IMG/VR virus record: IMGVR_UViG_3300031565_011003
Span: 1-22,444 of that record
Origin: a virus
Direction: 5' to 3' (one strand)
DNA length: 22,444 nucleotides
The position numbers and the translations under genes were made by a program. Shown one piece after another: positions 6,642 to 22,076 of the stretch. Each line of letters opens with the position of its first letter. The first letter of the stretch is position 1. The notes beneath the pieces were generated by a model. That model was not told the origin of the DNA. It ran no database searches and was given only the letters and a program-made list of their open reading frames with translations.

Positions 6642-7000
6642 AGCGCGGGATCTGCTTCGTCCGCCTGAGCCAGCTCGTGCGGTTGGCGGCTGAAGCGGAG
6701 GCAGAGGAGCAGCGGAACCGTCTCCGGGACGCGGCCTTGATCGGCTGGCAGTTGGGCGCCGGTGGCAAAGGCAAGAGCCACCTCGAGTATCTGAGGTCGC
6801 TCGGACTCGGATTTGACGACGACGGAAAAAAGCCGCTCGATCGGGCGGTGAGCAAGGATGAGTCGATGGCGAGCGCAGAGCGCGCCCTGGCCTACTTCAG
6901 GACCCATCCGAAACGGGTCGAGGGCCGGGGCAAGCAGATAGCTGAGCGCGAGAAGCGCAGGGCGCGACGACACGCAAGGAGAGCGCGCAGTGGGCGCTGA
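6090..7000 (+). CDS. Tail assembly chaperone, frameshifted long form (gpGT-like)
   Basis: Fusion product join(6090..6530, 6530..7000) made by -1 slippage at T TTT TTA, predicted at 303 residues. The first 147 residues are shared with the short chaperone. The added 156 residues begin SRTGEREG and include WKDRYLKRGICFVRLSQLV, an Ala/Glu-rich helix, and a very basic end (KQIAEREKRRARRHARRARSGR). The -1 frame has no convincing start of its own: the first possible codon is a GTG at 6485 without an SD, inside the overlap. That supports expression only as a fusion. In lambda, gpGT bridges the tape measure and the tube subunits; the same role is inferred here. Its 3' end overlaps the tape measure start by 11 nt. 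Confidence 0.8.
6524..6530 (+). promoter_or_regulatory. -1 programmed ribosomal frameshift slippery site T TTT TTA
   Basis: In the chaperone frame the codons are CTT TTT TTA, so the X-XXY-YYZ heptamer is T|TTT|TTA, a strong known slippery class. A -1 slip leaves both tRNAs paired (TTT, TTT) and continues as AGC CGA ACT (SRTGERE...) to the stop at 7000. A 7-T run is exceptional in this GC-rich window. A small GCGC/GCGC hairpin at 6564-6575 lies about 33 nt downstream; whether it stimulates slipping is unclear. Confidence 0.85.
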
Positions 7001-10000
7001 GATTTTCACGCTATTCGGCCGGATCGTCACGAACGCCTCGCAGGTCATGGGCGAGCTGGGCAAGGTGGACTCGGCCGCGGCGCGGACCGGCGCGAGTATG
7101 TCGCTGAGCTTCGCCAAGGCGAACGCGGCGATCCAGCAAAATGCCGGGGCGATCCGGGCGGCGGGCGTCGCCATGACCGCCGGTGGTGCGGCGATCGCCG
7201 CTAGCCTCTTCGGCGCGGTGCGGACGGCCGCCGACTTCGAGACACAGATGCGCAACGTGGACAGCATCATGAAGCTGTCGACGGCGCAGTTCAAGTCCAC
7301 ATCCGCGGCAGTCATCGCGCTCTCGCTCCGCCTCCCGCAGTCCGCCGCCACGCTGGCGGCCGGCCTCTATGACATCGCCTCGTCGGGGTTTGAGGGCGCG
7401 GAAGGCTTGACGGTCCTAGAGGCCTCGGCGATGGCTGCCTCTGCCGGGATATCTGACACCGCTACCGCCGCCAGGGCTATCGCGGGCGCGATCAATGCCT
7501 ATGGCATGAGTGCGGCGGATGCCGGGCACATCTCCGATGTGCTGTTCAAGACTGTGGACCGCGGTGTTATCAGCTTCCCCGAGCTGGCCGGAGGTATCGG
7601 AGAAGTGCTCGCTTCGGCCGCGGCGGTAGGCGTTCCCCTTGAAGAGGTCGGAGCAGCGATCGCGACCATGACGAAGGCGGGCGTGCCGGCGGCCCAGACG
7701 ATGACATCGCTGAACCGCATCATGGTGACGTTCCTCAATCCGCCGAAAGAACTCGCCAAGGCACTCAAAACTGTGACCGATGAGTCCGCCTTGCAGATCA
7801 TCCAAACGAAGGGCTTGGCGGGCGCGGTCGAGATCCTGAACAAGGTGACCGGCGACAGCCCGGAACTGCTTGCCGCCGTGGGGCTCGAGCAGAGGTCTCT
7901 GCGGGCCGCCATGAGCTTGACTCGAGAAGGCGGCGCGATCTATCGGCATGAGTTGGAGTTACAGGCCAACGCTGCCGGCGCCACGCAGGCGGCCCTCGAG
8001 CGCCAGGCAGAGGGCTTCAACTACCAGTTCGGTCTGATGAAGAACCAGATGAGCGCGGCCGCTATAGGGATAGGTGGACAGCTCATGCCGGCACTCCGCC
8101 CTCTCGTGGCTCTGGTGGGACGGATCGCCAAGGGCGTGGCCGCATGGATGAAGGAACACCCCGGACTCACTCGAGCGCTGGTTGTGAGTGCCGCGGCCGT
8201 CGCCGGGCTTATGCTGGCGCTCGGGCCCCTGCTGATCGCTCTGCCGAGCCTCATGTCTGTGATCGTGGCGATTGTTCTCGCGGGTGGCTTAGGGGCTGTC
8301 TCTGCCGGACTCACGGCGATCGGAGCGGCGGCCGCCGGGCTAGCAGCTCCCGTCGCCATAGCGATCGGCGTCATCGCCGCATTGGCGGCCGCGGTATGGG
8401 GCGGCAAGAAGGCATGGGATGCGTACTCAGGCGCGGTCAAGCCGATGACGGCAGAACAGCGGGCGCTGAATGCGCGGGTAAGTGATGCCTATGAGGTAGT
8501 GGAGGAGCTTGGCAAGAAGACGCACCTGACGGTGGAGGAGCACAAGCGGTACTACGCGGCGCTCCAGGAGCTTGCTCAAATCTACCCCGATGTCGTGAAG
8601 GGCTATGACGCGCAAGGCGAAGCCATCTTCGACCTCACCGAACTTGTGAAGAAGGCGCGGGCTGCGCATGAGGATTACATTCTGACGCTCAAGCGCGAGA
8701 TGAACCTGGAGCGGTTGAGCGGCATAGTTGAGTTGGTGAAGGTTCGGCAGCAGATTGCCGACCTGACGGAGAAGATTGAGCGGCAGAAGGGCGGCGCTCC
8801 CTGGTACCTCAAGTGGGCGGAGGATCCAGAGGGAGTGGCCAAGCTCAATGCTGAGTTGCGACAACTTGTTGCCCTAGAGACACATCTCACAGAACTGGAG
8901 AGGGCGCGCCGGGCCGGGGCGAAGGAACCGGAGGCCAAGCCGACACCGAAACCGACTGCGCCCACCGCGGCCGAGCTGGCGAAAGAACTCGCCCTCGCCC
9001 GCGAGATATTGGCTGGGAAGCTCGACGCCGCCACGACAGATACGGTCCGCATTGCCCTACAGAAGGAGCTGATCGCGCTGCTGACCCGATACGGACACGA
9101 GGCGGCCCTTGAGGAGTTGACGCGACTCCAATTGCTCCACGAAGCCCAGAATCTACAGCGGGATATGGGCAAGGAAGCGTTCGCGATTGCCGAAAGCGAA
9201 AACGCCCACAATATCAGGAAGGCGATGAGCTTCGCCGCGCTGGCAGAGGCGCTCGAAACGCAGAGTGACCTCTATCAGAAGATGGCGACTTCGGGCCGGC
9301 TGACCGATGCGGACCGCCAAGCGGCGGCCGACAAGATGCTGGACACGGAGAAGACGCTGCAATCGGCCAGGGCTGAATATGCGGCGTCCAATCTGTCGGT
9401 CGAAAAGGCGATGGTCGCCACTTATGAACAGGAACGCGCGGTCAGGGAACACGCAATCCGCATTCAAGAGAACCAACTCGCCACCGAGAGACTGACCGGA
9501 GACGAGGAACGGAAGCGCTTCGCCGACATCAAGGCGTTGCAGAAGGACCTCGCCGCGTTCGACGAGCAGCACCTCCAGAATGTCCATGCGATCAACCTCG
9601 CCGATGCCCAGACCTACGAGCAGCGGCGAGCACTCCTCAGCGTCGAACTGGCGCGTCAGCGGATGATAGAGGCCGAACCTGTCACCGCTGTCCTCGACGA
9701 GGCCGCCCACGAAGCCGCGCATGAGCGGGTGCGGGCAATTCGAGCGGCCATCGTCGCGCTCAACATCCAGGAGATCAACCAGCAAGTCGTCCTTCGGGCG
9801 CTGGCGGCTGGCAACCGGCAGGAGATCAACGCCTCTTTTGAGGAGCGCATCGCCTACCAGCAGTTGATCATCGACAACTGGAAGGAGATGGGTCTGTTTG
9901 AGGATGCAGCGGGTGCCGCCACAGAGGCGCGGCTGAACTTGGAGAGGGAACAGCGGCAGGCTCTTCTCGCATACGACCTGGCGTTGATAGACCGGGAGAT

Positions 10001-11093
10001 AGCCGCCACCGCTCAGGGCTATGAGAAGAAGAACGAGCTGCTGCAAGCGGCTGTCGCGGCAGAGATAGCGGCCGGCGGCAAGATTCTCGATCAGATAGAG
10101 CTGAGGGGGCAGATCGAGCAGAACGCTTACGCTGCCATCGCGGAGGCGCGGGGCGAACTCACGCGCTCAGGCGAGTGGGAACTGATGACACTCCAGGAGC
10201 AGGATGTCTGGCTCGGGCGGCAGTTAGAGAAGTGGACGGTGCTTGCGGACGAGGCTCTGCCCGACGTGCGCCACGAACTCGACGCGATGGACGCGGCGAT
10301 CCACGCGATGGAACCTACGTGGGCCGAGATGTTCCGCCAGGTCGCCAAGGGGTGGCAGACTGCGGGCGATTCCGGCAGGGCGATGATCTCGGACATCCTG
10401 AACGCGTTCCAAACGACGATCCGCGGCATGATGACGGGCGTCGCCACCTGGCGCGACTTCTTCCTCGCTGCCTGGAATGCCATCCTGGATTATATCTCGC
10501 GGTCCGCGATGGCAGACATCGTCAAGTGGGCCGAGGAGAAGCTCGGCAAGAAGCCCTCAGATGATAGCGGCAAGGCCGCGGCCAATACGAACCTGCTGGC
10601 CGGAACCGCGATGGGGATGGCTGCGGAATGGAACAAGGAGGCGGCCAGGGTCATGGGCCTCGCGGCGCTGGCGATGCAGCTCGCAGCGAATACGATGGCA
10701 GCGGCGGGAGCTGGTGGCGGCGCTGGCGGCGCTGGCGGCGGGATCTTCGGATTGCTGTCGGGGATGTTGGGGGGAGGCGGGGGAGGGGTAGACGCGGACG
10801 CGTACGGCCAGGCCTTCGAACTGATGGGCGCGATCCCCACGTTTGCGGCTGGCGGGATCGTCACGAAGCCGATGCTCGCGGTCGTGGGCGAGGTGCCCGA
10901 GCTTATTACGCCGCTCAGCCAGGTAGCGGCGGCCGGTGCCGGCGGGAGCGCGCCCATGACGGTCAACCTTAGCATTCAGGCCATCGACACGCAGAGCGGT
11001 ATCGACTTCCTGCTGCAGAACCAGCGCGCAATCGGGCAGGCATTGCACGCCGCCCTCAGCACGAACTCGCCGGTGGGGAGGAGGAACCGATGA
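6990..11093 (+). CDS. Tail tape measure protein (TP901-type)
   Basis: Sets tail length and is ejected with the DNA. It has 1367 residues and is the largest gene. About residues 80-270 are the TP901/PhageMin_Tail core (ADFETQMRNVDSIMKLS..., LYDIASSGFEGAEGL, NAYGMSAADA, VGVPLEEVGAAIATMTKAG). Residues ~397-470 hold hydrophobic, Ala/Gly-rich segments likely to enter the host membrane. Residues ~480-1130 are long charged helices or coiled coil. WRDFFLAAWNAILDYI at ~1155, a Gly-rich stretch (~1239-1267) and FAAGGIVTKPMLAVVGEVPEL near 1284 are the usual tape-measure C-terminal features. The GTG start at 6990 has AAGGAG at 6976-6981. By the known ~0.15 nm per residue, the tail would be about 200 nm. 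No lytic transglycosylase or peptidase domain is evident. Confidence 0.92.
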   Translation: MGAEIFTLFGRIVTNASQVMGELGKVDSAAARTGASMSLSFAKANAAIQQNAGAIRAAGVAMTAGGAAIAASLFGAVRTAADFETQMRNVDSIMKLSTAQFKSTSAAVIALSLRLPQSAATLAAGLYDIASSGFEGAEGLTVLEASAMAASAGISDTATAARAIAGAINAYGMSAADAGHISDVLFKTVDRGVISFPELAGGIGEVLASAAAVGVPLEEVGAAIATMTKAGVPAAQTMTSLNRIMVTFLNPPKELAKALKTVTDESALQIIQTKGLAGAVEILNKVTGDSPELLAAVGLEQRSLRAAMSLTREGGAIYRHELELQANAAGATQAALERQAEGFNYQFGLMKNQMSAAAIGIGGQLMPALRPLVALVGRIAKGVAAWMKEHPGLTRALVVSAAAVAGLMLALGPLLIALPSLMSVIVAIVLAGGLGAVSAGLTAIGAAAAGLAAPVAIAIGVIAALAAAVWGGKKAWDAYSGAVKPMTAEQRALNARVSDAYEVVEELGKKTHLTVEEHKRYYAALQELAQIYPDVVKGYDAQGEAIFDLTELVKKARAAHEDYILTLKREMNLERLSGIVELVKVRQQIADLTEKIERQKGGAPWYLKWAEDPEGVAKLNAELRQLVALETHLTELERARRAGAKEPEAKPTPKPTAPTAAELAKELALAREILAGKLDAATTDTVRIALQKELIALLTRYGHEAALEELTRLQLLHEAQNLQRDMGKEAFAIAESENAHNIRKAMSFAALAEALETQSDLYQKMATSGRLTDADRQAAADKMLDTEKTLQSARAEYAASNLSVEKAMVATYEQERAVREHAIRIQENQLATERLTGDEERKRFADIKALQKDLAAFDEQHLQNVHAINLADAQTYEQRRALLSVELARQRMIEAEPVTAVLDEAAHEAAHERVRAIRAAIVALNIQEINQQVVLRALAAGNRQEINASFEERIAYQQLIIDNWKEMGLFEDAAGAATEARLNLEREQRQALLAYDLALIDREIAATAQGYEKKNELLQAAVAAEIAAGGKILDQIELRGQIEQNAYAAIAEARGELTRSGEWELMTLQEQDVWLGRQLEKWTVLADEALPDVRHELDAMDAAIHAMEPTWAEMFRQVAKGWQTAGDSGRAMISDILNAFQTTIRGMMTGVATWRDFFLAAWNAILDYISRSAMADIVKWAEEKLGKKPSDDSGKAAANTNLLAGTAMGMAAEWNKEAARVMGLAALAMQLAANTMAAAGAGGGAGGAGGGIFGLLSGMLGGGGGGVDADAYGQAFELMGAIPTFAAGGIVTKPMLAVVGEVPELITPLSQVAAAGAGGSAPMTVNLSIQAIDTQSGIDFLLQNQRAIGQALHAALSTNSPVGRRNR

Positions 11094-12724
11094 GCGACGA
11101 GACCTACCCCATCGACTTCCTCGTCGGCGAGCTCTCGGCCCAGGGTCAATTCTCGACCGAGCAGGTCCGCTTCGAGACCGGCTACGTGCAGCGGAATGCT
11201 GTCTGGAACCATCCGCTGTGGCGCTTCACGATCCGGTACAGCTATCTCGATGCTGATTGGCTGGACGAGCTCCGCAACTTCTGGCTGCGCCACCGCGGGG
11301 CCGACGATACTTTCCGCTTCGACGACTACACGGATCCTACTCTGGTCGACAGAGTCTTCGGCGTCGGCGATGGCGAGACGCGCGTGTTCAAGCTCGGGCA
11401 CGACTACACCGACAACCCCACCATCGAGGCAGACGCGCAGGCGGTCACGGCTGTCTACGTGAGCCCCACGAACGGCAGGGTCGTGTTCGAGACGGCGCCG
11501 GTTGCGGGCGCAGTCCTTACCTACTCGGCAGACGCGGCGGGCTACCGGGTGCGCTTCTCCGATACCTTCGACTATGGGCGCTTGATGGAGGGTGCGTTCC
11601 AAAACCTGGAGGTGGTACTCGACCAGACATTGGACGACCAGGACCAGTACCCGATCCGGCAGGTGATGTTCGGTGGCATCATCACGACGCAGGAGCTCTC
11701 GGCCGTCGGCGACGCGGTGGCATTCAGCTTCGTGGCTCCCAAGGGGGTGACGGTCACCAGCATCAGCTACTATCTCGCCTCGATGACCGACCCGGGGGTC
11801 GTGCGGATCTCGGTGCGCGAGGACGATGACGGCGAACCCGGAGACATCGTCGCCTCGGGCAATGAGACGCCGGGGGCTGCCTCTACCTGGCGGACCGTGA
11901 ATGTCAGCACGCCTGCGGCAATCACCCGGGGCACTCGCTACTGGGTAGTGGTCGAGGCGCTGTCGGGCACCTGGGACGCCTCGCACAAGTGCGCGGTCAA
12001 GTTCACAGAGAGTGTCCCCAGCATCTCTCCCCTCGGCCTCCAGGACTCGATGCTCTGGGGCAGCTACCAGATCGCCGATTTGCGCTGTGATGGAACCCCG
12101 AACTCCTGGCTCGGGGTAGAGGGCAGCGAGGCCGGAGGCGACTGGTCGACGCATGACCGCGCCGGGCACGGGGCCTTCTTTCTCAACACCTCTGCCCTCA
12201 CGATCGTCGGCCACTGTCAGGCGCCCATGACGCAGGTGCTGGCCGGCGATGACCGGATCCGGCAGAAGATTGTCGTCGAGACCACGCACGACTTCACCAT
12301 CGACAGGATCGGTGCGGTGTTCTCGACCGGCACAGCCCCGGCAGACAGCCTGTACTACGCCATTGTCTTCGACAGCGATCCGCTCGTGATACAGCGGACC
12401 GGCACGCTGGCTACTCCCAGATCGACGGGCGGGGATCCAACCTACATCCAGACGCGGCTCGAACAGCCGCTGGACATCCCCACCGGCGAGACCGTTTACA
12501 TCGTCTTCTACTCGACGAGTTCGGTGGCCCCGGATGGCTGGACAGTCTACGGCCACTTCGACTCCTGGAGCGACTACGCGGCGGGCTGGAATGCGAACTG
12601 GGACTCGGTGCGGTGGGATGAGGACGAGAGCATGGCGCTGATCTCCCATGATGGGGGCCTAACCTATCCCATCGAGATTCGGGGCGCGTGGACGGTGCGG
12701 TGCCGCGGGAGGTGGGAGGCTTGA
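11090..12724 (+). CDS. DUF2460 distal tail protein with C-terminal beta-sandwich extension
   Basis: Predicted distal tail protein (RcGTA gp12-like) that joins the tube to the tip hub. Residues ~5-185 match the DUF2460 pattern: YPIDFLVGELS, a tryptophan-rich WNHPLWRFTIRY, FWLRHRGADDTFRFDDYTD, GVGDGETRVFKLGHDY, then VVFETAPVAGAVLTYS and YRVRFSDTFD. The usual family member is about 200 residues; this one is 544. The extra ~350 residues contain at least two beta-rich units, for example VRISVREDDDGEPGDIVAS with GTRYWVVVEA, and later FSTGTAPADSLYYAIVFD with GETVYIVFYS. These resemble carbohydrate-binding or anchor-type beta-sandwiches, so a host-surface or sugar contact is inferred. The ATG overlaps the tape measure stop (ATGA) and has GGGGAGGAGGAA just upstream. 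Confidence 0.8.
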   Translation: MSDETYPIDFLVGELSAQGQFSTEQVRFETGYVQRNAVWNHPLWRFTIRYSYLDADWLDELRNFWLRHRGADDTFRFDDYTDPTLVDRVFGVGDGETRVFKLGHDYTDNPTIEADAQAVTAVYVSPTNGRVVFETAPVAGAVLTYSADAAGYRVRFSDTFDYGRLMEGAFQNLEVVLDQTLDDQDQYPIRQVMFGGIITTQELSAVGDAVAFSFVAPKGVTVTSISYYLASMTDPGVVRISVREDDDGEPGDIVASGNETPGAASTWRTVNVSTPAAITRGTRYWVVVEALSGTWDASHKCAVKFTESVPSISPLGLQDSMLWGSYQIADLRCDGTPNSWLGVEGSEAGGDWSTHDRAGHGAFFLNTSALTIVGHCQAPMTQVLAGDDRIRQKIVVETTHDFTIDRIGAVFSTGTAPADSLYYAIVFDSDPLVIQRTGTLATPRSTGGDPTYIQTRLEQPLDIPTGETVYIVFYSTSSVAPDGWTVYGHFDSWSDYAAGWNANWDSVRWDEDESMALISHDGGLTYPIEIRGAWTVRCRGRWEA

Positions 12725-13620: not shown

Positions 13621-14045
13621 CCCCAGCACAGCGGGCCGCCGTCAAAGCCGAAGCATTCTCCTGGATCGGCACGAAGTTCAGGCATGGCGCTCGTATCAAG
13701 GGCGTGGGCGTGGACTGCGGCCAGCTCCTCGTCGCCGTCTTTTCCGCGGCGCATCTCATCGAGGCGTTTGCGCCGGAGAGCTACCCGCCAGACTGGTTCC
13801 TGCATCGTGATCGCGAGCGCTACCTGGAGGAGCTGACGAAATACGCGGATGCCGTGGAGCCTCTCTATGAGATCGGAGACATTCTGACCTACCGCTTCGG
13901 GCGGGCCGTGTCTCATGCCGGCATCTACGTCGGAGAGGGTTGGATCGTGCACGCAGACGGACGGGCGAAGATCGTGAATCGCTCGCAGATCAGCATGGCG
14001 GGATTGGCGCAGAGATTCGCCGGCGCCTACAGGCTGAGGGGCTGA
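13617..14045 (+). CDS. NlpC/P60 cell-wall peptidase of the tail tip (GTA gp14-like)
   Basis: Predicted peptidoglycan endopeptidase in the tail tip that opens the cell wall during DNA entry. At 142 residues it is the size of tail-associated NlpC/P60 enzymes. The catalytic Cys34 lies in GVDCGQLL, His100 in AVSHAGIYVG, and the third polar residue is His112 in WIVHADG. The N-terminus is AFSWIGTKFRHGARIKG, the usual 'a..w.GtPyr.ga...G.DC' lead-in. The GTG start overlaps the upstream stop (GTGA, 13617-13620); GGAGAG lies just before it. The stop overlaps the next ATG by 1 nt (TGATG). The gene order DUF2163, NlpC/P60, large hub is that of GTA gp13-gp15. Confidence 0.92.
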   Translation: MTPAQRAAVKAEAFSWIGTKFRHGARIKGVGVDCGQLLVAVFSAAHLIEAFAPESYPPDWFLHRDRERYLEELTKYADAVEPLYEIGDILTYRFGRAVSHAGIYVGEGWIVHADGRAKIVNRSQISMAGLAQRFAGAYRLRG

Positions 14046-15391
14046 TGGGCCAGCAGACTACGCTGTCAATCGTAGGAGCAGTCGTCGGGTTCGCGATTGC
14101 TGGACCGACAGGCGCCAAGTGGGGCTACATGGCGGGTTCCATGATCGGCAGCGCGCTGTACCCCCCCAAGGCGCAAGGCGGGCCCACGAGCCTCGGCCCG
14201 CTCGGCTTCACGGCCGCGCACCAGGGGCAGGTCCTGCCGGTGGTCTATGGGCGCACGCGGATACCCGGGACGATCCTCTGGTATGGCGACGTCGTGGCGG
14301 GGGAAGCTGGCAAGAAGGGGAGCGGAGGCGGCGGAAAAAAGAGCGGCGACAGCGCGAATTGGGGATTGGGAGTCGCGCTGTGCGAGGGAAGGGTCAGCAA
14401 CCTTTTCGCTGTCTGGGCGGGCGGCGACGAGGTGCCGTTGGGCGACATCGATTACAGCTTCTACACGGGGACTGGCGCGCAGACGGCGGATGCCTATATG
14501 GCTCTGTACCTCGGAGCCGGACAGGTCAGCGCGGCCTATCCATATGTCTGCTACATCGTGCTGGACAGCACGAGCCTCTCAAATCTCACGTTCGAGATAT
14601 TCCGCTCTACTGCCGACCTCGTGGCTGACAATCCCGCGCTTACCACTCTCGGGCTGAACGCGCACGTCGAGGACGCGAATGGCGACATGAATCCGGTCGT
14701 CTGTCTGGCCGATTTCCTGACTCACCCGCGGTATGGGCTCGGCTTCGCGGCATCGGACCTGGCGGCCGAATACTGGATTGAGGAGGCGCTCTACTGCGAG
14801 TTCAACGAGCTCTACGTTTCTCCGGTCCTCGACTCGGCGCAGGACGGGTTCGCCCATATCGAGCATCTGCTGAGCTATTTCGACGGGCTGTTGGTCTTCT
14901 CGCAGGGCAAGTTCAAGATCCACTCTCGCCGCTCGCCGGCGCGCGAGGCCCTGCCCTACCACAACCTGTACGAGACGGATTGGCTGGAGCATCCCCGGTT
15001 CTCGAGGTCGATCAGCGCGCAGGTCGCGAACACCATCGCTATCGAGTATCGGAACCGCGCCAACGACTACAACCAGGAGGTCGGCCCCCCGCTCGCCGAC
15101 GATTGGGATGTGGGCCAGCGCGGAGCCTATCGCCAACAGATCAGCCTCGGCGGGGTGACGACTGCGGTGGTCGCCGGGAAGATTGCGAGCAAGCTCCTAT
15201 GGAGCCGCGTCGCCTCACCCTTCAACGTGGAGCTGAAGCTGGGGCCGCAGGCGGCCTGCTATGAGGCGGGCGACATTCTGATGGCCTCGGGCTCCTCGGT
15301 GTACGCGGTGCAGGATCAGCATATCCGCATCATTGGGATCGAGGAGAACCCGGACGGGACATTCATGGTGACGGGGGTCGAGGAGAGATGA
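14045..15391 (+). CDS. Tail hub protein, N-terminal half (GTA gp15 / Phage-tail_3-like)
   Basis: Predicted N-terminal part of the large tail-tip hub, 448 residues. It starts with a Gly/Ala-rich hydrophobic segment (IVGAVVGFAIAGPTGAKWG), then HQGQVLPVVYGRTRIPGTILWYGD, the hallmark 'vpviYGr.Ri.G.iiW.gd' of gp15-like proteins. It continues with NWGLGVALCEGRVSNLFAVW and DFLTHPRYGLGF, and ends in a beta-rich Phage-tail_3-type region (ISLGGVTTAVVAGKIASKLL, YEAGDILMAS, IRIIGIEENPDGTFMVTG). It stops just where relatives continue into a C-terminal beta domain. That domain appears 5.1 kb downstream at 20523. The ATG at 14045 overlaps the upstream stop (TGATG) and has GAGGGG just before it; an ATG at 13940 would overlap the peptidase gene by 106 nt. 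Confidence 0.82.
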   Translation: MGQQTTLSIVGAVVGFAIAGPTGAKWGYMAGSMIGSALYPPKAQGGPTSLGPLGFTAAHQGQVLPVVYGRTRIPGTILWYGDVVAGEAGKKGSGGGGKKSGDSANWGLGVALCEGRVSNLFAVWAGGDEVPLGDIDYSFYTGTGAQTADAYMALYLGAGQVSAAYPYVCYIVLDSTSLSNLTFEIFRSTADLVADNPALTTLGLNAHVEDANGDMNPVVCLADFLTHPRYGLGFAASDLAAEYWIEEALYCEFNELYVSPVLDSAQDGFAHIEHLLSYFDGLLVFSQGKFKIHSRRSPAREALPYHNLYETDWLEHPRFSRSISAQVANTIAIEYRNRANDYNQEVGPPLADDWDVGQRGAYRQQISLGGVTTAVVAGKIASKLLWSRVASPFNVELKLGPQAACYEAGDILMASGSSVYAVQDQHIRIIGIEENPDGTFMVTGVEER

Positions 15392-15411
15392 TGGAGGCGA
15401 GGCTGCAGTGA
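15388..15411 (+). other. Seven-codon minicistron linking the hub stop to the next start
   Basis: ATG ATG GAG GCG AGG CTG CAG TGA (MMEARLQ) begins inside the hub stop (TGA 15389-15391, with ATGs at 15388 and 15391). Its own TGA (15409-15411) overlaps the GTG start of the next gene (15408). It holds GGAGG and GCGAGG, the ribosome site for that gene. It could carry terminating ribosomes into the island, or be a leftover of the split hub reading frame. The arrangement is seen; function is inferred. Confidence 0.35.
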
Positions 15412-18353
15412 ACGAGACGAGAACCGAAACCTACCCGACCGCCATCGGCCCGGTGGAGCTGACATCCAACTGGGAGGCGCTGCACCTGGTCTTCCGGCGG
15501 CGTTGCGGGGGCGAGCGGTTCCGAGAGAAGCCCATAGAGGTTACGGTCAGGCAGGTGCCCGTCGAGCAGATGCAGTCCGCTCCCGAGGGCGCACTGCTGA
15601 TCATGGATGCCACGGTGATCGCGGACGCCGATGGTATCTACGCCGAGGTGCCCGATCCGAGCTTCTGCGCTGGCGTGATTCTCGATTGGCTGTGGCTGGC
15701 CCTGGCGAAGTTCTGCAAACCCGAGGGTTGGGAGTTTCTGCACGCGGCGGCGGTGGCGGACCAGCAGGACGTGACCCTGATTGCCGGGGCATCGGGAAGC
15801 GGAAAGACGACGGCACTCCTGGCGATGATGGACGCGGGCGCGCAGTACCTCAGCGATGACGCCGTGCTGCTGGACCCCAAGACCGGCATGGTGTATGCGT
15901 GGACGCGGGACTTGCACCTGCTGCCCTCGCAGATGCAGGAGCGCTGGCCCGAACTCATAGGGGAGACGCTGGATTTCAACGGAAAAGTGCGTGTCAGTCC
16001 GCAGGCGCTGGGGCATGACGCGAGCATTGGCGGAAGGCTACGGCGGGCACTGGCGCTGGCGGGAGAAGGGGAGGGCCTGGAGCTCTCGCACAAGGGGGTC
16101 GGCCTCGAGGAGGCGATAGGCGCCGACGTGCTCGCTCCGTTCTGCCCGATTGAGTGGTGGGGTGCGAAGCCGGCGGATCTCGCGGAGAGAGTGGCGGCGC
16201 GGGCGCTGCCTGCCTGCCCTCCGTTGGCGGTCTGCACGCCGTTCTCGGGCAAGGCCTGGGCGCTCGGAGATTGGATCGCCTCCTTCCTGCGCCTCAATAT
16301 CCCCGGCGATGCGCATCTCCTCTGGCTCTGCAACTCAGACGACGATGAGTTTTGGCGGGCGCTGCAGGAGCAGGCGGCGTTGCTCGCCTCGAGTTACCCA
16401 CATATCCAGCTGTGGCGAGACACGCACAGGGTCGGCGTGAAAGACCGGCAGGTCGCCTACCTCTGGCAGCAGCTTAGGACGCGGATGCCCGACGGGGTTG
16501 AGCTTGTCATGTCTCTCGAGGACGACGTTCTCCCGGATGCAGGGGCGTTCGAGGCGCTACTGCGCGAGTGGAGCCGGCGCGAGGGTCGGGACATGGTCGG
16601 GGTGCCGGTCGCCCATACCTATATGCTGGGCGAGGTGACGGCGCTCGCCTGGGTCTACGAGACGGCCGGGCCCACTACCGATGCGCGATTCCTGATAGCG
16701 GACGGCGTGGCGGCGCGGGAGGCAATGCCCCGGCTCGGGCCCGCCCAGGTGAGCGGACTCTCCTTCTCCTGTGCGATGGTATCGCGTGACCTCTTCGACT
16801 CCGCTACCCTGGCGCCGGGTGGGGACGCGTACGTCGCCGGCGGCTACGATCACCAATTCTGCATGGATATCGCGGCCAAGGGCGCCTTGATCGTCGCCCA
16901 TTGGGGCATCGGCTCTGTGCACCTCAAGCAGACTGGCGGGGGCATCCAGCAGGTTCGCCTGAATGCCAAGGCAGTGCTTCTGGTGGGTACTGGCCCCGAT
17001 CCCGGAGACGGCACGCGCTACGAGGTGGCGGGTCGCGTGAGCCCAGACGAACTCATAAACCGCCTCGGAGATGCTGAATATGCGCTCTTCGTCTCGCCTG
17101 CACAGGCTGTGACCCCCGCTTACGTGGACGCGCTGGTCGACCACCTAACCTGGCACCCCCAGGTTGGCTCTGTCTGGGGCTACCAGAGGCGTTCGGACGG
17201 GAGGATGACTCCTGCGTCGGGGGCGGGCGTTCTCGTGCGCCTACAGGCGTGTAGGGGCGCCAGGACTGGCGAACTGGATGCCCTGCGAGCCTGGCTCTGC
17301 ACCGAGGGTTGGCATGAGCACCACAGTGACCGGGCTTGCCTGGATTATCTAGGATCAGAAGAGCCAGTCGCCTATAGCCCGCCGCGGGACAGACGACGCA
17401 TCGTGAGTCCATACCGAGTACTCATGCTGAACCGGGACCGCTGGCGAGGCACGTGGCCTGGCTTCGGCGGTGACTTTACGCAGATCGAGGGCTACCGCAA
17501 GGGCCTGCGGGCGCTGGGGGTCTATGCCGACCTGCGGAGCGGTGCTTTCTGGTGGCACGATGCCTATCAGATCATCCACCTGCACCACCACCAATACGAC
17601 TGGGCATGGGAGGCGGCCGAGACCTGCGATGGGTGGCGGCCAGTGGTGCTGTCGGCAATCACCCACGGCAAGCCCACCCGCGACATCATGGGTAGAGCAG
17701 TTGGGCTGGCGGATCTGATCGTCTGCTACTCAGAATCCGAGGCCGCCTTCATCGAGCACCGCTTCCCGGAGAAGAAGGGGCGGACGCGAGTCGTGCCCAT
17801 GGGCGTTGACTCAGCACTCTTCTCGGCGAACGGGAAAGTGGAAGCGGAGCGGTCTGTGCTGATGTGCGGGAAGATCTGCGACTACAAGAACCAGCTCGCC
17901 GTCCTCGAGGCCTGCAAACGCCTCGACGTGCCGGTGCGCTTCGCCGGCTTCAATGAGGATCCGATACACGATCCGTATCTCGACGAGTTCGCGGCCGCGG
18001 TCGCCGCCTATCCTAAGGCCGAGTTCCTCGGCTTCCTGCACGGCGAGGACCTGCGAGATGCGTACGATCGTGCGTGGGTTCACGCGAACGCCAGCCGCTT
18101 CGGACCTTTCGAGCAGGTGTCACTCGACGCGTTGGCCCGGCGCTGCAATGTCGTTCACACACAGAACTCCTGGGCCGCGGAGATGTTCGGGAAGGTCGGC
18201 AGCCTGTGCGATCCCGATGATGTGGACAGCATCGCCGAGGCGATCGACACCGAACTCAAGCGGCGACGCGGTTGGGCGAACTGTCGCCCGCCTACCTATG
18301 TAGAGGCGGCCCGCTCACTGATGGGGGTCTACGAGGAGGCATTGGCGCGATGA
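15408..18353 (+). CDS. HprK-like P-loop kinase / GT-A / GT4 glycosyltransferase fusion
   Basis: A 981-residue multidomain protein. (1) Residues ~105-240: HprK-related P-loop domain with FLHAAAV (111-117), Walker A GASGSGKTT (127-135) and LSDD (148-151); this is the arrangement of HprK C-terminal-like kinases, including lasso-peptide kinases. (2) ~270-515: GT2-like GT-A domain with a DXD-like SLEDDVLPD (EDDV at 371-374) and an acceptor-side GGYDHQFCMDIAAKG. (3) ~520-650: a weaker GT-A-like segment (YALFVSPAQAVTPAYVDALVDHL) that may be degenerate. (4) ~668-981: GT4 domain (LADLIVCYSESEAAFI, RVVPMGVDSALF, FGPFEQVSLDAL). No transmembrane segment or signal peptide is seen. The GTG start at 15408 overlaps a seven-codon minicistron. 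The stop overlaps the next gene (ATGA). The substrate is unknown; likely a nucleotide-sugar-dependent modification linked to a phosphorylation step. Confidence 0.8.
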   Translation: MNETRTETYPTAIGPVELTSNWEALHLVFRRRCGGERFREKPIEVTVRQVPVEQMQSAPEGALLIMDATVIADADGIYAEVPDPSFCAGVILDWLWLALAKFCKPEGWEFLHAAAVADQQDVTLIAGASGSGKTTALLAMMDAGAQYLSDDAVLLDPKTGMVYAWTRDLHLLPSQMQERWPELIGETLDFNGKVRVSPQALGHDASIGGRLRRALALAGEGEGLELSHKGVGLEEAIGADVLAPFCPIEWWGAKPADLAERVAARALPACPPLAVCTPFSGKAWALGDWIASFLRLNIPGDAHLLWLCNSDDDEFWRALQEQAALLASSYPHIQLWRDTHRVGVKDRQVAYLWQQLRTRMPDGVELVMSLEDDVLPDAGAFEALLREWSRREGRDMVGVPVAHTYMLGEVTALAWVYETAGPTTDARFLIADGVAAREAMPRLGPAQVSGLSFSCAMVSRDLFDSATLAPGGDAYVAGGYDHQFCMDIAAKGALIVAHWGIGSVHLKQTGGGIQQVRLNAKAVLLVGTGPDPGDGTRYEVAGRVSPDELINRLGDAEYALFVSPAQAVTPAYVDALVDHLTWHPQVGSVWGYQRRSDGRMTPASGAGVLVRLQACRGARTGELDALRAWLCTEGWHEHHSDRACLDYLGSEEPVAYSPPRDRRRIVSPYRVLMLNRDRWRGTWPGFGGDFTQIEGYRKGLRALGVYADLRSGAFWWHDAYQIIHLHHHQYDWAWEAAETCDGWRPVVLSAITHGKPTRDIMGRAVGLADLIVCYSESEAAFIEHRFPEKKGRTRVVPMGVDSALFSANGKVEAERSVLMCGKICDYKNQLAVLEACKRLDVPVRFAGFNEDPIHDPYLDEFAAAVAAYPKAEFLGFLHGEDLRDAYDRAWVHANASRFGPFEQVSLDALARRCNVVHTQNSWAAEMFGKVGSLCDPDDVDSIAEAIDTELKRRRGWANCRPPTYVEAARSLMGVYEEALAR

Positions 18354-19015
18354 TCGGACTGCCCACGAGGGTCCATATCGGTATCAGCTACGCGTGCAAT
18401 ATCCGCTGCCTGTCTTGTCTCCAGGGGGCGACGCCGGACGGACCGTTGATGCCGTGGGAGACTTTCAAGCGCGTGCTGCGGCTGGTGGGACCGGGATGCG
18501 AGACCTTGCTGTTCGGCCGGGGCGAACCCTTGTTGCACCCGCGGTTCCGCGACATGGTGGCGGCGGTGGCGGGGCGCGGCGGCGTGCCGAGCACCACCAC
18601 GAATGGGACGCTACTGAATGCAGACACGATACCTTCCCTTGTTGATGCGGGGCTTGCCGGCGTGTCCATCTCTATCCACGGCGCCGACGCGGCTACTCAC
18701 GAGCGCCTTCAGGTCGGCGTTGACAGCGAGGCGGTCTGGCGGGGTATCGCCGAGTGCCGGGCCGCTGGAATCGGCGTGATACTGGCGACGGTCGTAATGC
18801 AGTCCACCATGGAGCAATTGCTTCCGATCGCCGAGCGCGGGAAGATCCTAGGCGTGAAGGCCGTTGCTTGGCTGCGCATGATGCACGACGGCTCGCTGAA
18901 CGCCGAGGACCCGTTCCTACCCGACAGGGCGGCCGAGAGCTGGGCGCGGATCGAAGGGTTGCGGGGTCGACTGCCAGAGGGAGTGAGATACTATGACAAC
19001 CTCGGCACGCGCTGA
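18350..19015 (+). CDS. Radical SAM enzyme, core domain only
   Basis: Predicted radical SAM catalytic core of 221 residues. The 4Fe-4S/SAM motif is C16-x3-C20-x2-C23 (ACNIRCLSC) in the N-terminal IGISYACNIRC context. A GRGEP in LFGRGEPLLHPRF replaces the usual GGEP. TTTNGTLLN and VSISIHGADAATHERL follow, as in SPASM-type radical SAM enzymes. The start at 18350 has GAGGAGG at 18333-18339 and a 4-nt overlap with the upstream stop. The expected C-terminal SPASM domain is absent here but begins the next gene, which overlaps by 23 nt in a different frame. The two products therefore probably act as one enzyme. SPASM enzymes usually modify peptides or proteins, or oxidise sugar-type substrates; which applies is not known. 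Confidence 0.85.
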   Translation: MIGLPTRVHIGISYACNIRCLSCLQGATPDGPLMPWETFKRVLRLVGPGCETLLFGRGEPLLHPRFRDMVAAVAGRGGVPSTTTNGTLLNADTIPSLVDAGLAGVSISIHGADAATHERLQVGVDSEAVWRGIAECRAAGIGVILATVVMQSTMEQLLPIAERGKILGVKAVAWLRMMHDGSLNAEDPFLPDRAAESWARIEGLRGRLPEGVRYYDNLGTR

Positions 19016-20519
19016 AACCTACTGCACGATGCCCTTCGTGGGCATCTACGTCCAGGAGGACGGGACTATCTATCCGTGCTGTTTTGCGCCCGGGAACATG
19101 CCGCCCTTCGGCAATGCCAACACGGACGACGTCGAGCAGGTCTGGCAGCAGGGCATGGAGGGCCTCCGCCAGCGGATGCTCACTGGCGATATGCCGGGGC
19201 CCTGCCGGAACTGCACCATGTCGGCGAACTACCTCCAGCCGCTGCCGCAACCGGCGCCACCGGCCATAGCATCGCCCTCGGGTCCCGTTGATACGGGCAG
19301 GGAGTCCTGGGTCTTCCGTGTCCCCGAGCGGGAATTCCTCCGCCTCTGCGCGATGATTGACCCGGATTGGGCATCTATGCGGCAGATCGCCCGGACGGCG
19401 CTTGACTATGGCGTGCTTCGTCGAACCGCCCTCCTCCACCAGCTCGACGGCGTGGTGGCCTGGCGGTTGCTCGACGACCGCATGGACGGTATCGCGCCGA
19501 ACATCGTGCGTGATGACTGCCAGAGATACGTCGACCACCTTGCCGGCTACAATCGGCCCAGGTGGGAGGAATTCGCGAGATTCGAGGCGGCGGTCGAACG
19601 AGCAGGGCTGCCCCATGTGGTGAAGGGAGGGCCTGCCCAATATGCTCCATTGGGGATTAGTGGGTGGCCGCGCTCGTGGGCCGACTTCGATATGTACGGG
19701 ACGGCCGACTCAATTGCACCCATCCTGTCAATCGCTATCGAAGCGGGGGCCGAATCAACACAGTTCGAGCAATACGAATGGTTGCTCCGCCTGCCGGGAG
19801 GCGCGTGCATTGATCTTGAGGTTGATCTAATCGAACGCGATGAGTCCGCCTTTGGCATGGTGGAGAAGAGTCAAGTCTGTTCGATTCTCGGATGCGATAT
19901 TCGCATTCCTGCGCCGGAAGCCAACGTGGCTCTCATGGGGTACGCAACATGGAGCGCGCTGACTATATCGGCGGCACGACTGCCTTTATGGGGCCTGGCT
20001 CGTCTTGCGGCCTGGACAACGACGCCCAACTTCCAACGGTCTGTCCTTTCCAAGATGCTATGCCAGAGCATAGAGGGCTACCGAGGCGACCCCGACTGGC
20101 CGGAATCCTGGCGGCAGCAAGGTGTTCCGCAGAGGAATGCCGATGGCTACTATAGCCTGCAAACCCTGCTCATGGCTGACAGAGCGTATGGGCTTAACAT
20201 AGGCGACCTGGGCGACTTGGTCAGCCCACACCCCGTTGGGGACCCTCTCATATTGACGGCGGGGCCGTGTACCCTGCAAGACCGCGTGTCCGAACAACCA
20301 TTGCCCAACCGCCTCTATACCTGGGCGCGCGAGTTGGCAGACGAGGAACTTCTCTTCGATATGGTCGAGGGAATAGATGCCAGGGTGGCCGCGGGAATCT
20401 GGGTTGAAGTTGAGGGCATTGATCGCCTCCTCTTCAGATATGACCGCACTGCTGACCGGAACACAATAGAGATTGACGATAGCGCCCCGAGACTCAAGGG
20501 AACCCACAAGGGAACTTAA
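18993..20519 (+). CDS. SPASM domain fused to NTP_transf_5-like nucleotidyltransferase
   Basis: A 508-residue two-part protein. Residues ~9-80 form a SPASM auxiliary-cluster domain: YCTMPF (C11), then VQEDGTIYPCC (C29, C30), FGNANTDDVEQVW and GPCRNC (C71, C74). This is the part missing from the radical SAM gene upstream. Residues ~105-400 resemble the NTP_transf_5 family: a helical LRLCAMIDPDWASMRQIARTAL, then GLPHVVKGGPAQYAP (KGG 211-213), and SWADFDMYG with D231 and D233 in the 'K-G-P...R---DID' motif. The remainder (400-508) is beta-rich and unassigned. The ATG at 18993 has GAGGGAG 9 nt upstream and overlaps the upstream gene by 23 nt. Composition becomes less GC-rich after about 19640. The nucleotidyltransferase call is weaker than the SPASM call. 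Confidence 0.72.
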   Translation: MTTSARAETYCTMPFVGIYVQEDGTIYPCCFAPGNMPPFGNANTDDVEQVWQQGMEGLRQRMLTGDMPGPCRNCTMSANYLQPLPQPAPPAIASPSGPVDTGRESWVFRVPEREFLRLCAMIDPDWASMRQIARTALDYGVLRRTALLHQLDGVVAWRLLDDRMDGIAPNIVRDDCQRYVDHLAGYNRPRWEEFARFEAAVERAGLPHVVKGGPAQYAPLGISGWPRSWADFDMYGTADSIAPILSIAIEAGAESTQFEQYEWLLRLPGGACIDLEVDLIERDESAFGMVEKSQVCSILGCDIRIPAPEANVALMGYATWSALTISAARLPLWGLARLAAWTTTPNFQRSVLSKMLCQSIEGYRGDPDWPESWRQQGVPQRNADGYYSLQTLLMADRAYGLNIGDLGDLVSPHPVGDPLILTAGPCTLQDRVSEQPLPNRLYTWARELADEELLFDMVEGIDARVAAGIWVEVEGIDRLLFRYDRTADRNTIEIDDSAPRLKGTHKGT

Positions 20520-20522
20520 GCG

Positions 20523-22076
20523 ATGGCCGAGCGGATCTGGGAATACGAAATCCAAGGCTCTGCGCCCGGCGCGGGCCGCCCCGGCCTCTACTCCAGCGAT
20601 CCTGGCGACACGGTCGGCTGGCTCTGGGAGGAGCCCGCGGACATAGCGCAGGGGCACATTATCCTGCGGCTGATTCTCGGCAACCCGAACGCGAGCAACG
20701 CGCCGTGGGCGGGCTGTAACGTCTACCTCTCCTATGACGATCTGAGCTATGCCCTCTTCGCCTCCACGTCACAGCGTTCGATCATCGGCGAACTGAGCGC
20801 GGCGCTTCCGGCGGGCGCGGGAACCTGGCAACCGGCGGCGACCTGCGATGTGGACATAACGGTGTCGCCGGGGACCCTCGTGACGACCGACGCGGCCAGT
20901 TGCCAGGCGGGTGTGAATCTCTGCCTGATCGGGGACGAGGTCTGTTCCTTCGTCGATGCAACGTTGATCGGTGCGAACGAGTACCGGCTGACGGGGTTCC
21001 AGCGCGGATGGTTCGACACGGCGGTTGTCCTGCACCCCATAGGCGAACGGTTCGCCATGCTGAGTTCATTGCAGGCGCGGGTGAGCCTACCCATCCCGGC
21101 CAAGGGGCAGACCTGGCATGTCAAACTCGCCTCGCTGAACATCGGGCGCGTCGAGATGGCAATGGGCGCCGCGGCACACCTGACCTTCGACGGGAAGGGC
21201 CTCGGCGCGACGCTGAACAACACGGGGCTGCATCTGCTCGACACGAACGCTTCCCACGACCTCATCATCGCGCCGGGGTCGGACCTCACCGCCGACCGCA
21301 TCCTCACGCTGACGACGGGGGACGCGGCGCGGACCCTGACCTTCGAGGGCAACGCCATCCTCAACCAGGACTACTCGACCGACTCGGCGACGGTGCAATT
21401 CGCCACGGTGACGCTCACCACTGGATTGCTGACTCCCCAAGTGGGGCCGGCCGCCGACGCTGACCTGCTCGGGTTAGCGCCTGGTGTGCTGACGGTGAAT
21501 GGATATGTAGATGCAGGAACAAGCTATGCGTCCCTTGCAGTACACCTGGCAGGATATCTACTTGTTGGCCAAATAGGTTCAGCTAGAGGCACAGCAATAG
21601 TTTCATGCCCTAACTCTACTACTGCTCCGAGCATAAGAGCCTGTATGTATGGCAACAACCTGTATTACGATCTCTCGGTTGTCGCCGGGTCACACGTTGG
21701 TTATGCAAAGGAAAGTGCTGCCCTCGGAGCATCGGGCATAGTGATGACTGGCCCCAATGCGGCCAGTGGAACCTTCAATTTCATTACGGCCAATGACACC
21801 AACGATGATACATGGGTCGTGACAACGGCCATGACATTGTCCGCAACGGCAATGGTAGTCGCTGGAACCCTCACCGTCAACGGCAACCAGACCGGGGCGA
21901 CCGATCATGTGTTCGATGAGTACGACGACCTCGCCCTGCTGCACGCTTGGCGGGATGGCGGCAAGCTCCCGTTCGCGAGAGGGGACATCCTGAACCACGA
22001 CCGACTGCTCCGCGATACGATCCTGCAACTGGCGGCGCGGATAGAAACACTGGAGGCGCGACATGCCACTCACTGA
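20523..22076 (+). CDS. Tail hub C-terminal part fused to a tail fibre
   Basis: A 517-residue structural protein. Residues ~30-185 match the C-terminal domain of GTA gp15 (Rcc01698-like): WAGCNVYLSYDDLSYALFAS, then VSPGTLVTTDAASCQAGVNLCLIGDEVCSFVDATLI, then YRLTGFQRGWFDTAV...HPIGERFAML, the family's 'Y.L..LLRG..GT...H..Ge.f.ll'. Residues ~220-455 are Thr/Ser/Gly-rich beta repeats of fibre type (LTLTTGDAARTLTFEGNAILNQDY). Residues ~460-517 (EYDDLALLHAW...DRLLRDTILQLAARIETLEAR) are a coiled-coil C-terminus, probably for trimerisation. The ATG has AAGGGA 9 nt upstream. The first half of the same hub is at 14045-15391. Residues ~320-450 (about 21480-21870) are clearly less GC-rich, suggesting a swapped receptor-binding module. 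Confidence 0.75.
   Translation: MAERIWEYEIQGSAPGAGRPGLYSSDPGDTVGWLWEEPADIAQGHIILRLILGNPNASNAPWAGCNVYLSYDDLSYALFASTSQRSIIGELSAALPAGAGTWQPAATCDVDITVSPGTLVTTDAASCQAGVNLCLIGDEVCSFVDATLIGANEYRLTGFQRGWFDTAVVLHPIGERFAMLSSLQARVSLPIPAKGQTWHVKLASLNIGRVEMAMGAAAHLTFDGKGLGATLNNTGLHLLDTNASHDLIIAPGSDLTADRILTLTTGDAARTLTFEGNAILNQDYSTDSATVQFATVTLTTGLLTPQVGPAADADLLGLAPGVLTVNGYVDAGTSYASLAVHLAGYLLVGQIGSARGTAIVSCPNSTTAPSIRACMYGNNLYYDLSVVAGSHVGYAKESAALGASGIVMTGPNAASGTFNFITANDTNDDTWVVTTAMTLSATAMVVAGTLTVNGNQTGATDHVFDEYDDLALLHAWRDGGKLPFARGDILNHDRLLRDTILQLAARIETLEARHATH

Follow-up and report, generated by a model that had tools for sequence, protein, structure and literature searches.

In mycobacteriophages, glycans occur on capsid and tail-tube subunits (PMC12619734, citing Freeman 2023), and a glycosyltransferase (GT) gene together with a methyltransferase (MT) gene is read as an indication that virions are glycosylated (PMC13313380, citing the same work; see also PMC12691614). 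In the passages of these papers that concern them, the mycobacteriophage systems are described with neither an HprK-like kinase, radical SAM/SPASM proteins or NTP_transf_5, nor a hub gene split by enzymes. The locus reported here shares with them GT and MT genes that adjoin virion genes (after the major capsid gene in a relative). For an HPr-kinase homologue paired with a nucleotidyltransferase, one studied example exists, pseudomycoidin K and N of a phosphoglycosylated lasso peptide, and it is on this lasso peptide that protein phosphoglycosylation has so far been demonstrated (PMC8498205). A similar pair is found here, although the kinase is fused to a glycosyltransferase and NTP_transf_5 to SPASM; moreover, our cassette lacks recognised precursor, B and C proteins in the searched sequence, and it lies in a phage structural operon.

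Two further systems combine HprK-like proteins with other tailoring functions. The HPr-rel-A system (TIGR04352) is the one whose profile the kinase domain described below matches best, yet at 33.8-46 bits the match stays far under the curated cut-off of 200 bits, and the PqqD-like partner of that system is missing here (there is no intergenic room for it, and no PqqD match among the proteins searched). In SynChlorMet (ScmC/ScmE/ScmF), an HprK-like protein adjoins radical SAM/SPASM proteins, as in our cassette, which nevertheless scores far under all of the cut-offs, lacks a PqqD-like ScmD, and adds GT and NTP_transf_5. On the phage side, the GTA-like, Rcc01698-type tail hub (PF13550, PF23666; phages Effie, 5W and Strzyga) has the same domain order and the same neighbourhood of tape measure, DUF2460, BR0599, NlpC/P60 and hub, but it is one undivided gene in each of the four relatives compared, while here it is two genes 5.1 kb apart. 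Finally, pelagimyophages likewise carry GTs and radical SAM genes close to their tail-fibre genes; according to the relevant sections of PMC7029224, these are T4-like phages whose cassettes are not inserted in a hub gene, with no HprK-like kinase reported.

The window analysed is the whole of a viral record of 22,444 bases (IMGVR_UViG_3300031565_011003). On its plus strand, the head side runs from two Methyltransf_24 genes through a GT4-type glycosyltransferase and a head-tail connector to head completion and further head-tail genes. The tail side runs from the tape measure through DUF2460-DUF4082, BR0599, NlpC/P60 and the N-terminal half of the hub to the cassette, followed by the C-terminal hub half with its fibre. 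A second viral contig, IMGVR_UViG_3300031707_004040 (32.6 kb, hereafter L002), carries the three cassette genes in the same order and at the same hub position. The features discussed below are as follows.

3-1099 (3-503 and about 506-1099), plus strand: two Methyltransf_24 genes
1096-2481 (ORF listed from 919), plus strand: GT4-type glycosyltransferase (EX7E motif present), preceding the head-tail connector
6990-11093, plus strand: tape measure protein
11090-12724, plus strand: DUF2460 tail protein with a DUF4082 extension, a candidate acceptor (Ser plus Thr 16.5%)
14045-15391, plus strand: N-terminal half of the hub, Phage-tail_3 (13940-15391 in the mechanical listing; the ATG at 14045 is the likely start)
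15408-18353, plus strand: P1, a 981-aa fusion of an HprK-like domain, a region GT-A-like by eye, a stretch without assignment and GT-B (68% identical homologue in L002)
18350-19015, plus strand: P2, a radical SAM core of 221 aa, by profile and motif (51% identical homologue in L002)
18993-20519, plus strand: P3, 508 aa, SPASM plus NTP_transf_5-like, by profiles (42% identical homologue in L002)
20523-22076, plus strand: C-terminal half of the hub (Rcc01698_C) plus a fibre-like C-terminus, with its own ATG

The cassette consists of three overlapping open reading frames. A sequence-only reading had placed it at 15408-20519 within a phage tail operon; the coordinates are exact and the cassette is real, the longest stop-free run in shuffled sequence of the same composition being 372 aa, compared with 981 and 508 aa in the cassette. 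The location in tail genes also holds, although it can be given more exactly: the cassette sits inside the tail-hub gene itself, with Phage-tail_3 (PF13550, 8e-14) before it and Rcc01698_C (PF23666, 8e-19) after it. Hence the "fibre" that the same reading saw downstream has a fibre-like C-terminus but is the C-terminal half of the hub plus fibre. The preceding protein matches the N-terminal part of the tail-hub families, and the following protein corresponds to a later region of those families. A single-gene hub directly follows the peptidase gene in four cultured phages: Acinetobacter phages Effie, 5W and MD-2021a, and Brevundimonas phage Strzyga. Aligned to these four hubs, the end of our N-terminal half leads straight into the start of our C-terminal half, with a gap of 0-3 residues. 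In a more distant viral contig (L003), the hub frame exceeds 1,080 aa and is cut off by the end of the contig; the available stretch is without a cassette.

In both the window and L002 the split falls at a domain boundary, and the hub is a single polypeptide in neither. Each half has its own start and its own stop codon; presumably, then, the hub is translated as two separate polypeptides, which would assemble. An intron or RNA element was considered as the cause of the split and dismissed, given these separate start and stop codons and the lack of any Rfam match. Repeats flanking the cassette, as marks of a mobile element, are short, imperfect and at chance level. The C-terminal half is the best-conserved tail segment between the two phages (78% identity over its first 277 residues, compared with about 53% for the N-terminal half).

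From one hub half to the other, consecutive gene ends overlap or almost touch: P1 and P2 overlap by 4 nt (ATGA) and P2 and P3 by 23 nt. The cassette thus appears to belong to the late structural operon. No promoter-like site was detected. The tail relatives are mostly proteobacterial phages, and the two phages here resemble proteobacterial phages with a GTA-like tail.

The first approximately 270 residues of P1 form an HprK-like P-loop kinase domain (LHAAA at 111, GASGSGKT at 127, SDD at 149). HprK_rel_A (1.8e-8) and HprK_rel_B (7.8e-7) both score under their curated cut-offs, and the TIGR04352 alignment pairs P1 residues 110-169 with model positions 98-157. The likeness to HprK is thus confined to the P-loop core, whose HprK-type residues (P-loop, upstream His and Asp pair) are present in both phages as GxSGSGKT, LHAAA and SDD. 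Residues ~270-520 appear GT-A-like by eye (EDD at 371, YDHQFC at 480), with no significant profile match, and residues ~520-665 are without domain assignment. Residues ~670-981 are a GT-B domain above the cut-off (Glyco_trans_1_4, 2.8e-11; Glycos_transf_1, 4.8e-9), scoring 44.3 bits with PF13692 in the window and 43.7 bits in L002 against a cut-off of 27. This GT-B lacks the canonical EX7E motif, the corresponding stretch being GPFEQVSLD (G..D) in the window and EPFGQVTLD (E..D) in L002.

P2 is a radical SAM protein (PF04055, 7.3e-19, above the cut-off; 1.7e-15 for its L002 counterpart), with a CX3CX2C motif starting at residue 16 (CNIRCLSC in the window, CNLHCLVC in L002). Its closest PDB match is BlsE, a cytosylglucuronate decarboxylase; the likeness is limited to the common core, and hints at a sugar substrate. 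A match to viperin (PADLOC pVip, 3.7e-11) was set aside, because higher scores go to MoaA and other radical SAM families, and P2 falls far short of the NCBIfam cut-off for viperin. The SPASM domain lies on P3 (PF13186, 1.6e-8; 35.1 bits in the window and 39.2 bits in L002, above the cut-off of 21.5), with its five cysteines (C11, C29, C30, C71 and C74) in register between the two phages. In both, therefore, the radical SAM core and SPASM are encoded by separate, overlapping genes and are not one polypeptide. The same overlap of ~23 nt in L002 rules out that P2 and P3 owe their separation to a frameshift or a sequencing error.

The remainder of P3 resembles NTP_transf_5 (PF14907) at 1.9e-4 in the window and 0.014 in L002, that is, 21.5 and 15.5 bits against a gathering cut-off of 31.2, sub-threshold in both. 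We take the consensus active-site pattern of this family to be K...DxD. The presumed site reads VKGG (210) and RSWADFD (227) in the window, and VHGG and RSWDAID in L002, in which K is replaced by H and the first D of DxD by A. Given this altered site, the nucleotidyltransferase step may not be conserved. With P1, P3 and their domains, PDB sequence searches gave no meaningful match (calpain matches were dismissed, being based on a short Trp-rich stretch), and AlphaFold2 with two-sequence alignments gave a mean pLDDT of 32 for P1 and 35 for P3, too low for use. Thus, from the domain set of the sequence-only reading, GT-B, radical SAM and SPASM are above cut-off, the HprK-like and NTP_transf_5-like domains are sub-threshold but, like the other three, regarded as genuine, and the first of its glycosyltransferases, the GT-A-like region, is without a profile match.

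The three-gene set, which that reading had proposed to look for elsewhere, was found again in L002, and the hub C-terminal half after it is 78% identical. L002 keeps the P1/P2 ATGA overlap, and its profiles repeat each domain assignment (HprK_rel_A, 2.8e-11). Over ~1,700 cassette codons, there is no stop or frameshift in either phage. The dN/dS values between the window and L002 are ~0.23 for P1, ~0.42 for P2 and ~0.31 for P3, within the range of the structural genes in this comparison of two genomes, both fragments. Synonymous divergence (pS) is 0.54-0.60 for P1, P2 (both ~0.57), both hub halves, the capsid-side GT, DUF2460 and the head-completion genes; P3 is higher, at 0.675, with synonymous sites near saturation. 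Since P1 and P2 resemble the structural genes in pS, the cassette has apparently been co-inherited with them; it was most likely already present in the common ancestor of both phages, and it is under purifying selection. Failed domain support and decayed active sites, which would have spoken against the sequence-only reading, apply only in part: the GT-A-like region has no profile match and the NTP_transf_5 site is altered in L002 as above, while the motif residues of the kinase core, radical SAM and SPASM are retained in both phages.

The two phages also differ in small features around the cassette. L002 has a 55-aa ORF (L002:11752-11919) that overlaps the stop of the N-terminal hub half (ATGA) and has no Pfam match; its window counterpart is merely a 7-codon ORF (MMEARLQ). 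Between P3 and the C-terminal hub half, L002 has ~340 bases not found in the window (L002:16964-17302), whose minus strand holds a potential small protein with a hydrophobic N-terminal stretch.

A search of 50,697 cultured-phage records recovered no relative for P1 or P3. IMG/VR motif scans found L002 alone, plus L003 for the hub, and GTDB genome scans with P1 and the C-terminal hub half found none; being driven by short conserved motifs, these scans overlook more distant ones. One plasmid gene, annotated as HprK-related kinase B, matches the P1 kinase core.

Glycan-type genes are also found beside other virion genes. The relative has an MT-MT-GT block directly after its major capsid protein, and the window begins within this block, upstream of the connector, with its own capsid gene outside the record. 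The two Methyltransf_24 genes of the window correspond to one fused ORF in the relative (L005:6932-8179, minus strand). Between its portal-MuF fusion and prohead protease, the relative encodes a Capsule_synth protein (PF05159, a Kdo-transferase-type family; L005:11421-12644, minus strand) with no match among cultured phages. A 614-aa protein with a Thr-rich start and no Pfam match lies between its capsid-side GT and connector (L005:3703-5547, minus strand), and is missing from the corresponding place in the window. Across the two phages, glycan-type genes thus adjoin genes of the head, the portal and the hub. Streptomyces phage TurkishDelight, too, has a GT homologue, which is flanked by capsid genes on one side and tail genes on the other.

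Our preferred explanation, which we consider about evenly poised between right and wrong, is that the cassette encodes a late-expressed phage modification that places a glycan on a virion protein, most likely one at the tail tip. It is favoured by the recurrence of the set in L002 with retained motif residues and purifying selection, the late-operon position, the overlapping genes, the glycan-type genes beside virion genes (also in TurkishDelight), and the mycobacteriophage and lasso-peptide precedents. The most likely acceptors at the tail tip would be the C-terminal hub half with its fibre or the DUF2460-DUF4082 protein, which has a long C-terminal part without assignment and is 51% conserved in the relative. 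The modification would be glycosylation, perhaps phosphoglycosylation. The HprK-like domain of P1 would phosphorylate a hydroxyl, either of Ser on a protein or of a sugar, and its GT-B domain, possibly with the GT-A-like region, would add a sugar. P2, working in trans together with the P3 SPASM domain, would alter the sugar or a peptide, while P3 would add or activate a further group. Lying between the Phage-tail_3 and Rcc01698_C codons of the hub, the enzymes would be co-translated with their presumed substrates. Counting against this explanation are the sub-threshold NTP_transf_5 matches of both phages, the altered site of L002, the non-canonical EX7E, the P-loop-limited likeness to HprK and the sample of two genomes. 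The sequence-only reading had already named a virion protein as one possible target, next to a surface modification in the infected cell, and is partly supported overall; it overlooked the split hub and the sugar- and methyl-transfer genes near capsid genes, the latter of which strengthen the case for virion modification.

In the main rival reading, the cassette would be a moron whose products change LPS, capsule or some other glycan on the host surface, and thereby block superinfection or re-adsorption of progeny to debris. Cargo genes are frequent in tail operons, and GT-B, HprK_rel_A, an EPS_EpsE-like similarity and the Capsule_synth of the relative all resemble polysaccharide-locus enzymes. 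Furthermore, the part of PMC7029224 on the pelagimyophage host-recognition cluster interprets GTs near tail genes as modifiers of host LPS. Nevertheless, the cassette seems to be expressed together with the overlapping genes of the late structural operon, which is late for exclusion; the window has no recognised flippase or polymerase gene; the glycan-type genes are dispersed beside several virion genes; and protein-kinase-like and SPASM domains are unusual for simple LPS decoration. On balance, we regard host-surface modification as somewhat unlikely. The enzymes might otherwise tailor a peptide encoded elsewhere, in the manner of phosphoglycosylated lasso peptides, SynChlorMet or HPr-rel-A. 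HprK-like proteins do pair in such systems with NTP_transf_5 (PMC8498205) and with radical SAM/SPASM, and the matches to NCBIfam ScmC/E/F and HprK_rel_A reflect this. Against such a peptide pathway, which is quite improbable, no PqqD-like protein, B or C lasso protein or precursor gene is recognised in the window or the searched parts of the relative (both incomplete genomes). The sequence-only reading had likewise seen no precursor or PqqD-like gene. The window cassette has no intergenic space for one, and the sole small ORF of L002 (55 aa) is without a Pfam match and missing in the window.

Sets of kinase, glycosyltransferase and radical SAM enzyme also occur in phage base-hypermodification pathways, and here could modify the phage's DNA bases ahead of packaging. 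Hypermodification of DNA by virus-encoded GTs is known, as cited in a passage of PMC12619734. Nonetheless, this is very improbable: the kinase is HprK-like, unlike a base kinase, the location is the tail tip and not replication, and no thymidylate-synthase-like, hydroxymethylase or similar gene was found among the proteins searched in the window and the contig of the relative, neither of which extends to the replication module of its phage. Lastly, a decaying or passenger insertion without selected function would accord with the altered NTP_transf_5 site in L002, the identity of just 42% for P3 and the non-canonical GT-B motif. It is already disfavoured by the intact ~1,700 codons in both phages, the dN/dS of 0.23-0.42 like that of structural genes and the retained motif residues of three domains, and is very improbable.

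Taken together, these phages offer a clear example of a core tail protein that tolerates being split between two domains by a cassette of 5 kb. A bolder form of virion modification, unlikely as it stands, is a tail hub split by its own modification enzymes and bearing a phosphate-linked, radical-SAM-tailored glycan, with phosphoglycosylation of the lasso-peptide type recruited to the virion. Should the cassette indeed act on the virion, such modification would extend past simple glycosyl- and methyl-transfer to kinase and radical chemistry that decorates the tail tip facing the receptor, and this decoration could tune adsorption or shield the particle.
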